DNA of 42,162 nt, taken from positions 1 to 42,162 of the forward strand of contig JAEEXP010000008.1 of NCBI GenBank assembly GCA_016287865.1, read 5' to 3'. Of the stretch, positions 31,261-41,440 are shown piece by piece. Each line of letters begins with the position of its first letter. Positions within the stretch are counted from its first letter, which is position 1. The notes under the pieces were generated by a model. That model was not told the DNA's origin, did not search any database, and saw nothing but the letters and a program-made list of their open reading frames with translations. The DNA comes from Caryophanales bacterium (lineage in GTDB: Bacteria; Bacillota_I; Bacilli_A; Izemoplasmatales; UBA1188). Position numbers and translations under genes: made by a program.

Positions 31261-31485
31261 TCCTTAAAACAAAAATTTGTCTTAAGGACGAATAATAATC
31301 CGTGGTACCACCTTAATTCTAGATTTCTCTAGCACTTGGTTTGTGTTAACGCAGGTCTTGCGGGAGTGATTGGCTCCACTCGGGAATGAATTCATAAGAC
31401 GCTAATATTGTGATCTCACCATCCACAATTCTCTTGGATTAGTTGAATCTTATTACTACTTTCCTTCAACGTTTTCATATTATTA
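31261..31485 (-). promoter_or_regulatory. T-box leader (Phe) upstream of pheST with terminator
   Basis: Minus strand has AAGGTGGTACCACGG at 31297-31314 and TCCTTAAGACAAATTTTTGTTTTAAGGA plus T-run at 31261-31288; upstream AGTAGTAA and GGTGAGA stem I-like motifs. Confidence 0.92.
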
Positions 31486-40678: not shown

Positions 40679-40788
40679 TTGTACTATGGAGAAATAGTCA
40701 TGAAAATTAAAATATTTACCCTGTTAGTACAACTTAATATAATAAACACAAGCCTCGTTGTGAAAATACACAGCGAGGCTTTATTTTT
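40679..40788 (+). ncRNA. Candidate small structured RNA
   Basis: TATAGT -10-like box at 40670-40675, TTGTACTA/TAGTACAA inverted repeat, then strong terminator; no stop-terminated ORF inside. Confidence 0.35.
40751..40788 (+). terminator. Strong Rho-independent terminator
   Basis: AGCCTCGTTGTG-aaaata-CACAGCGAGGCT then TTATTTTT. Confidence 0.9.
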
Positions 40789-40844
40789 GCGAAAATTAGC
40801 AGTATTTAAAACAAATTTTATTATAAATAAGGAGAATTTTATAT

Positions 40845-41150
40845 ATGTCTAGAAGTGAATTTAGATGGAACAAAAAGAGAAAACATTATGCATACTTACA
40901 CAAGGATGATGGAGAAAAAAGATTAAACATACTAATTACATCAAAACCTTATGTTCTACGTAAAGGCAAGATTCAAATGATCAATATTCCTTTATATAAA
41001 CATCCGAATAACAAAGAGGGACAATATTATCTAGTACCAAGAAACTATGCAGATAACAAAAACTCGTTTGACAATAAAATATACAAGTGGAATTGGAATA
41101 AGAATGATAAAAGGAAAGTAAAAAGAATTAAAAAGAATAAATACAAATAA
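40845..41150 (+). CDS. Small highly basic protein of unknown function
   Basis: AAGGAG RBS; 101 aa MSRSEFRWNKKRKHYAYLHKDDGEKRLNILITSKPY...KWNWNKNDKRKVKRIKKNKYK. Confidence 0.7.
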   Translation: MSRSEFRWNKKRKHYAYLHKDDGEKRLNILITSKPYVLRKGKIQMINIPLYKHPNNKEGQYYLVPRNYADNKNSFDNKIYKWNWNKNDKRKVKRIKKNKYK

Positions 41151-41189
41151 AAAGTCGGCTACGAAGCACTATTTCAGCAAATCACCGAC
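41145..41189 (-). ncRNA. Candidate small RNA unit C (third of three tandem units)
   Basis: -35 TTGACT (41219-41224), 17 bp, -10 TATAGT (41196-41201), 6 nt, GTCGG...CCGAC stem (41189-41185/41158-41154), T-run. Confidence 0.65.
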
Positions 41190-41222
41190 ACAATTACTAT
41201 ATCAAACAATTATTCATAAGTC

Positions 41223-41277
41223 AAATAAAAAAACCGGTATCGAACTCACATCAATTAAGACAGGTATATCAACCGGC
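41223..41277 (-). ncRNA. Candidate small RNA unit B (second of three tandem units)
   Basis: -35 TTGATA (41307-41312), 17 bp, -10 TATATT (41284-41289), 6 nt, GCCGGT...ACCGG stem, TTTTTTTATTT. Confidence 0.65.
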
Positions 41278-41310
41278 ATAATTAATATAGCAAATAATTA
41301 TTCATATATC

Positions 41311-41354
41311 AAATAAAAAGTCGGCTACGACACCAGTAAAGGTAAATCACCGAC
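41311..41354 (-). ncRNA. Candidate small RNA unit A (first of three tandem units)
   Basis: -35 TTTACT (41384-41389), 17 bp, -10 TAAATT (41361-41366), 6 nt, GTCGG...CCGAC stem, TTTTTATTT. Confidence 0.6.
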
Positions 41355-41393
41355 ATATGTAATTTATCATATTTTATTTATTTAGTAAATAAA

Positions 41394-41415
41394 AATAGAC
41401 TCTCGCGAGTCTATT
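41394..41415. terminator. Bidirectional terminator downstream of tuf
   Basis: AATAGACTC-tcgc-GAGTCTATT flanked by A-run and T-run. Confidence 0.85.
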
Positions 41416-41440
41416 TTTATTATTTGTTAGTGATTAGTAA

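Follow-up and report, generated by a model that had tools for sequence, protein, structure and literature searches.

A probable type III-like toxin-antitoxin module with opposite-strand hairpin RNA genes beside a small basic protein gene

Architecture of the RNA units

Downstream of a gene for a 101-amino-acid protein, the window (the whole stretch of 42,162 nucleotides analysed here) carries three similar hairpin units that differ in their cores, which raises the question of what these units are, what they have to do with the gene beside them, and toward what any specificity of their cores would be directed. The first-pass annotation had drawn attention to the three units, and we confirmed their presence and assigned them to the minus strand, where they are convergent with the protein gene (40845-41150, plus strand) and follow one another in the 5' to 3' order C, B, A. 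Unit A, the gene-proximal one (41149-41189), consists of a hairpin at 41189-41154 (GTCGGTGATTTGCTGAAATAGTGCTTCGTAGCCGAC) with the A-type core GCTGAAATAGTGC, followed by TTTTT. Unit B (41228-41277) has its hairpin at 41277-41233 (GCCGGTTGATATACCTGTCTTAATTGATGTGAGTTCGATACCGGT), a B-type core (ACCTGTCTTAATTGATGTGAG) and a T-run, and unit C (41315-41354) has a hairpin at 41354-41320 (GTCGGTGATTTACCTTTACTGGTGTCGTAGCCGAC) with the C-type core ACCTTTACTGGT, which is near the A type, and again TTTTT. In all three units the closing stem comprises 6 bp and the T-run follows immediately.

Each unit is preceded on the minus strand by a sigma-70-type promoter of identical geometry, with 17 nt between the -35 and -10 elements and 6 nt from the -10 element to the RNA start. 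The elements are TTGACT (41224-41219) and TATAGT (41201-41196) for unit A (promoter at 41196-41224), TTGATA and TATATT for unit B (41284-41312), and TTTACT and TAAATT for unit C (41361-41389), the weakest of the three. When the exact spacing was demanded, the fraction of dinucleotide shuffles that scored as high was 0.0016 for the promoter of unit A, 0.0018 for that of unit B, and 0.046 for that of unit C. Folding of the minus-strand array was also stronger than that of shuffled sequences (z -5.3), the folded stretch including the terminator of tuf. This bidirectional terminator (41388-41421) separates the RNA array from tuf and is the first terminator-like site 3' of the 101-aa gene. Judged from its sequence, each of the units A, B, and C has the appearance of a full RNA gene, some 40-50 nt long, in which a single hairpin doubles as the terminator. 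The first-pass annotation was thus accurate on the sequence but incomplete on strand and meaning, as it had missed the promoter 6 nt upstream, the T-run, the link to the protein gene, and the conservation of the core types.

Another element of this kind lies on the plus strand, 5' of the 101-aa gene (40715-40790), where 6 nt separate a promoter-like TTTACC-17-TATAAT from a perfect 13-bp hairpin with a T-run behind it. Its anatomy matches that of the minus-strand units, but the stem is long and perfect, and the element could act as a terminator, or it could be a fourth RNA gene of this miniature kind.

Covariation and conservation of RNA structure

The closing stem differs between the units while pairing is kept, and this exchange had previously been read as a sign of selection at the RNA level. 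Within the window alone the argument is weak: only pair 2, where U-A is replaced by C-G, shows a true double change, and the changes at pair 1 (G-C/G-U) and pair 6 (U-G/U-A) are one-sided. It is in the relatives that the claim holds up. Among 17 RNAs of the A/C type the lower stem takes the forms GTCGG/CCGAC, GTTGG/CCAAC, ACCGA/TCGGT, TCCGA/TCGGA, GTCAG/CTGAC, GCCGG/CCGGT, and ATCGG/CCGAT, so pairing is kept despite substitutions, with 94.8% of cells paired against 16-47% in slid controls. Double-change cells numbered 24, compared with 7.6 in shuffles (0 of 500 as high); in this count the sixth pair was scored with column 35 rather than 36, and the other pairs carry the result. The 10 RNAs of the B type have 100% of their stem cells paired, with 8 double changes. 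Covariation is found as well in the longer RNAs (about 65-85 nt) of a distant protein clade, in which 8 of 13 pairs have compensated changes. All of these structures were modelled as nested pairs, a form of model in which a pseudoknot, as in type III antitoxin RNAs, would not appear.

Because some hairpins had initially been chosen by their pairing, we also performed a stem-blind scan using the inner motif alone. Here, 15 of 36 matches had flanks with 5/5 pairing, the stems differed in sequence, and nearly all were followed by a T-run. As the homologues covary in the stem, comparative sequence analysis gives good support for selection on RNA structure. Neither the units nor their longer relatives had a match in Rfam at gathering or relaxed thresholds.

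The linked protein family

The gene that converges with the array encodes a basic, lysine-rich protein, and is preceded by a putative promoter and ribosome-binding site of its own (40796-40834, plus strand; TTAGCA-17-TATTAT at 40796-40824, then AAGGAG). The protein belongs to no family in Pfam, NCBIfam, PADLOC, or PHROG; compared with ToxN/AbiQ, CptN, and TenpN it gave no meaningful Pfam or NCBIfam score, and it had no PDB sequence match to any toxin. To gain insight into its fold, we used AlphaFold models of the window protein (pLDDT 90, pTM 0.80) and of a distant relative (32 sequences; pLDDT 90, pTM 0.81). In Foldseek searches of the PDB, almost all matches to both models were toxins of the MazF/CcdB fold (TM about 0.6, probability up to 1.0), and the best matches in a library of viral structures were endoribonucleases or PemK/MazF proteins. 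The models therefore predict a MazF/CcdB-like fold and make the protein a putative RNase toxin, although a MazF/CcdB/SH3-like barrel need not mean a nuclease and the best Foldseek E values were only 0.01-0.05. The invariant or near-invariant residues of the family (F6, R7, H14, L50, P54, Y62, F75, and D88 in window numbering) are compatible with RNase activity. No gene for a protein antitoxin lies beside the 101-aa gene in the window, and its linked partner is RNA.

The same partnership recurs in relatives of the protein, which have hairpin RNA genes encoded opposite them, for the most part immediately past the 3' end of the gene. A mechanical search reaching 320 nt from the 3' end recovered a unit of promoter, hairpin, and T-run on the opposite strand for 30 of 63 genes, as against 1 of 63 for the gene's own strand. 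Throughout the family, the -35/-10 promoter sits 6-7 nt ahead of the stem. For 35 family RNAs the promoter score at a fixed distance was 9.46, compared with 6.96 for shuffled sequences (0 of 300), when the -10 form TTTAAT, as used in relatives, was permitted besides TATAAT.

The RNAs can also be found independently of the protein. When 279 genomes were searched with a covariance model built solely on the A/C type, 22 matches were obtained. Seven A-type matches lay outside the training set: four were beside a protein that could be recognised as a family member, weakly so in two cases (L150, L147, L135 with a second profile at E 0.0006, and L146 at E 0.14), and three were orphan RNAs with no family gene (L142, L148, L149). 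New matches to the B-type model include a three-RNA array beside a distant relative of the protein (L163) and two orphans (L164 and L165). Arrays that are heterotypic, like that of the window, occur in L079, L149, and L163. In L149 (1380-1700), a long-type RNA, an A-type RNA, and a third RNA gene are arrayed with no recognisable family protein gene, possibly as an orphan antitoxin array.

In three further loci (L071, L082, and L083) the protein genes are broken and the RNAs intact. The reading frames of two of these (L082:5001-5302 and L083:5001-5305) shift by -1 in the identical place, at an A-rich run (A AAA AAA in L082, A AAA AAG in L083), which may represent either programmed frameshifting or shared decay.

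RNA types and protein clades

The cores fall into conserved types that recur in distant genomes, such as the A core GCTGAAATAGAGC and the B core CTTAATTGATGTGAG, and the window holds one each of the types A, B, and C. When the gene-proximal RNA types, 12 in all and assigned by eye, were placed on the protein tree, they required 12 changes, compared with a minimum of 11 and a mean of 35.8 after shuffling (0 of 200). The window protein is a member of the A clade and has unit A as its proximal unit, whereas the type of unit B is the one that adjoins another protein clade and unit C is similar to the gene-proximal RNAs in a sub-clade (L090, L093, L094). Since RNA type tracks the phylogeny of the adjacent protein, any specificity of the cores is more likely to be directed toward the cognate protein, but linkage by itself would cause protein clade and RNA type to be inherited together, so that their co-inheritance is no proof of recognition.

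Distribution and genomic context

Within the class, a profile of the protein family detected members in 70 of 279 genomes from a different order, often in multiple copies, whereas the remaining 89 genomes of the window's own order yielded none. The window copy was therefore probably acquired horizontally. No member was found in phages, plasmids, or viral contigs. The array and the protein gene adjoin tuf, and in a congener (G003) whose tuf is 97% identical a different gene directly follows the shared terminator. The tuf match ties the contig to the genus, which argues against contamination.

Some observations on genomic setting can be added. In five loci (L077, L078, L082, L116, and L117) the relatives sit between apparent rplU (L21) and radC genes, an apparent insertion hotspot. 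Two others (L127 and L133), from GC-richer genomes, have a cassette-like arrangement of three tandem copies of a minus-strand protein gene and a plus-strand RNA gene, with both proteins and RNAs diverged. Elsewhere in the window (31281-31478, minus strand), an ordinary T-box leader (Rfam RF00230, 116.6 bits) precedes a pheS-like gene.

Interpretation of the locus

We consider it probable, at roughly 0.7, that the locus is a type III-like toxin-antitoxin module with autonomous hairpin RNA antitoxins on the opposite strand, for which we infer the antidote function. In such a module, the 101-aa gene would encode a ribonuclease toxin of the MazF/ToxN fold, and the three minus-strand units would be autonomous antitoxin RNA genes, each expressed from its own promoter and each with a hairpin that serves as both functional RNA and terminator. 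The RNA would be made in excess and would fold into a lower stem, an asymmetric internal loop (UGAUU / UCGUAG), a short upper stem, and a loop, and the folded RNA would inhibit its cognate toxin directly, by binding and blocking it. Unit A, which adjoins the toxin gene, would be the cognate antidote, while units B and C, of types that adjoin the toxins of other clades, may provide cross-protection by neutralising related toxins that arrive horizontally. Expression, toxicity, RNase activity, direct inhibition of the protein by RNA, and cross-protection are all steps that we infer.

That the family forms a distinct class of RNA antitoxin, with single-hairpin genes in heterotypic arrays in which the proximal RNA is the antidote and the distal ones are a stock held against the toxins of other clades, is a tentative proposal that we would sooner doubt than accept. 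If true, the heterotypic array would be an RNA-based library for anti-addiction or immunity that sometimes outlives the toxin gene.

Other explanations have to be weighed against the toxin-antitoxin reading. The protein might form a stable ribonucleoprotein with the hairpins, as an RNA-binding partner or processing factor for which they are guides or cargo, and with no toxicity involved. A small basic protein so tightly linked to a structured RNA would suit this arrangement, and SH3-like barrels can be non-catalytic RNA binders, but we think it unlikely, as the patchy distribution, the multicopy cassettes, the pseudogenised protein genes with retained RNAs, and the orphan RNAs fit a selfish or defence module better. 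Slightly less credible still is a type I-like arrangement in which the units are cis-antisense regulators. Because there is no terminator before 41388, the sole terminator-like site 3' of the gene being that at 41388-41421, the protein mRNA may read through the array, which is then antisense to its likely 3' untranslated region and could pair with the minus-strand RNAs. However, the RNAs of L070, L072, and L074 and one unit of L082 are divergent and upstream of the gene and need not overlap the mRNA, and regulation by antisense pairing predicts neither conserved internal loops nor RNA types that track the protein clade. The protein, moreover, is basic and soluble and not a small hydrophobic toxin.

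Ordinary intrinsic terminators that have been duplicated and have no function as RNA would account for the T-run after a GC stem in each unit, but they are very improbable, and we rejected them on the position of the promoter 6-7 nt ahead of the stem across the family, the conservation of the internal loops, and the placement of the units opposite the gene and hardly ever on its own strand. Finally, the suggestion of the first-pass annotation that the variable core carries base-pairing specificity, as in a CRISPR-like array of guide or target-specific small RNAs directed at foreign nucleic acid, draws on the tandem units with their similar scaffold and differing cores, but it is largely contradicted and we give it almost no credence: there is no pattern of identical repeats and unique spacers, the cores recur across genomes, nothing elsewhere in the host genome matches the A or the B core, even with up to 3 mismatches allowed, and exact core patterns gave 40 chance matches in viral contigs, mostly GC-rich and without the stem and T-run anatomy.

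A toxin-antitoxin module of the kind we favour would be of wider interest. To our knowledge, RNA antitoxins that act on the toxin protein come for the most part from a small number of families whose RNA is transcribed before the toxin gene, and a widespread gut and rumen family with self-terminating RNA genes of about 40 nt on the opposite strand would extend the type III concept. Neither partner is named in the protein or RNA databases that we searched, and searches of the open-licence literature turned up no account of the pair. Such a family would offer very small protein-RNA recognition pairs, of which many cognate ones can be compared, and with it cross-neutralisation and the hoarding of antitoxins would become directly testable.

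Comparison with known systems

Several known systems share features with this probable module. As in type I systems, the RNA lies on the strand opposite the toxin gene, but here it is outside the ORF and sometimes divergent and upstream, and in place of a small hydrophobic peptide whose mRNA is overlapped by an antisense RNA there is a basic protein of predicted beta structure. The predicted toxin fold is shared with the type II systems MazEF and PemIK, whereas the partner here is RNA and no protein antitoxin gene is adjacent. A functional precedent is provided by AbiF (Abi_2) and its abiF RNA, such as RCd22 of C. difficile: this small structured RNA, which like the units here has a promoter and a terminator to itself, binds the toxic protein directly and thereby neutralises it (PMC12373285). 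In contrast to the present locus, the abiF RNA lies upstream on the same strand, and the protein, Abi_2, is unrelated and is linked structurally to Cas13; neither an Abi_2 protein nor the abiF RNA motif had a Pfam, PADLOC, or Rfam match at the window.

The closest resemblance is to the type III systems (ToxIN, CptIN, TenpIN, and AbiQ), in which toxins of the MazF/Kid/CcdB-like fold adjoin a small structured RNA whose units measure about 35-45 nt, and in which RNA type is co-inherited with protein clade (PMC5086642). The locus has a MazF/Kid/CcdB-like beta core by fold prediction only, and the covarying hairpins linked to its gene are putative antitoxins. It differs in that each RNA gene has a separate promoter and lies on the strand opposite the protein gene, a hairpin usually makes up a transcript by itself and also terminates it, the units are heterotypic rather than repeated, and there is neither sequence similarity of the protein nor an Rfam match. 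The locus should not be classified under ToxIN, CptIN, or TenpIN, because it lacks two of their usual features, namely homology to the type III toxins ToxN/AbiQ, CptN, and TenpN and a same-strand bicistronic operon in which RNA repeats that are processed by the toxin, a terminator, and the toxin gene follow one promoter. Among the relatives, only L073 (1220-1780), which has an integrase as its neighbour, looks like such an operon, with a promoter, then a structured region, a terminator, and the protein gene, all on the same strand in the classical type III order, and it is possible that this locus represents a bridge to the type III arrangement.
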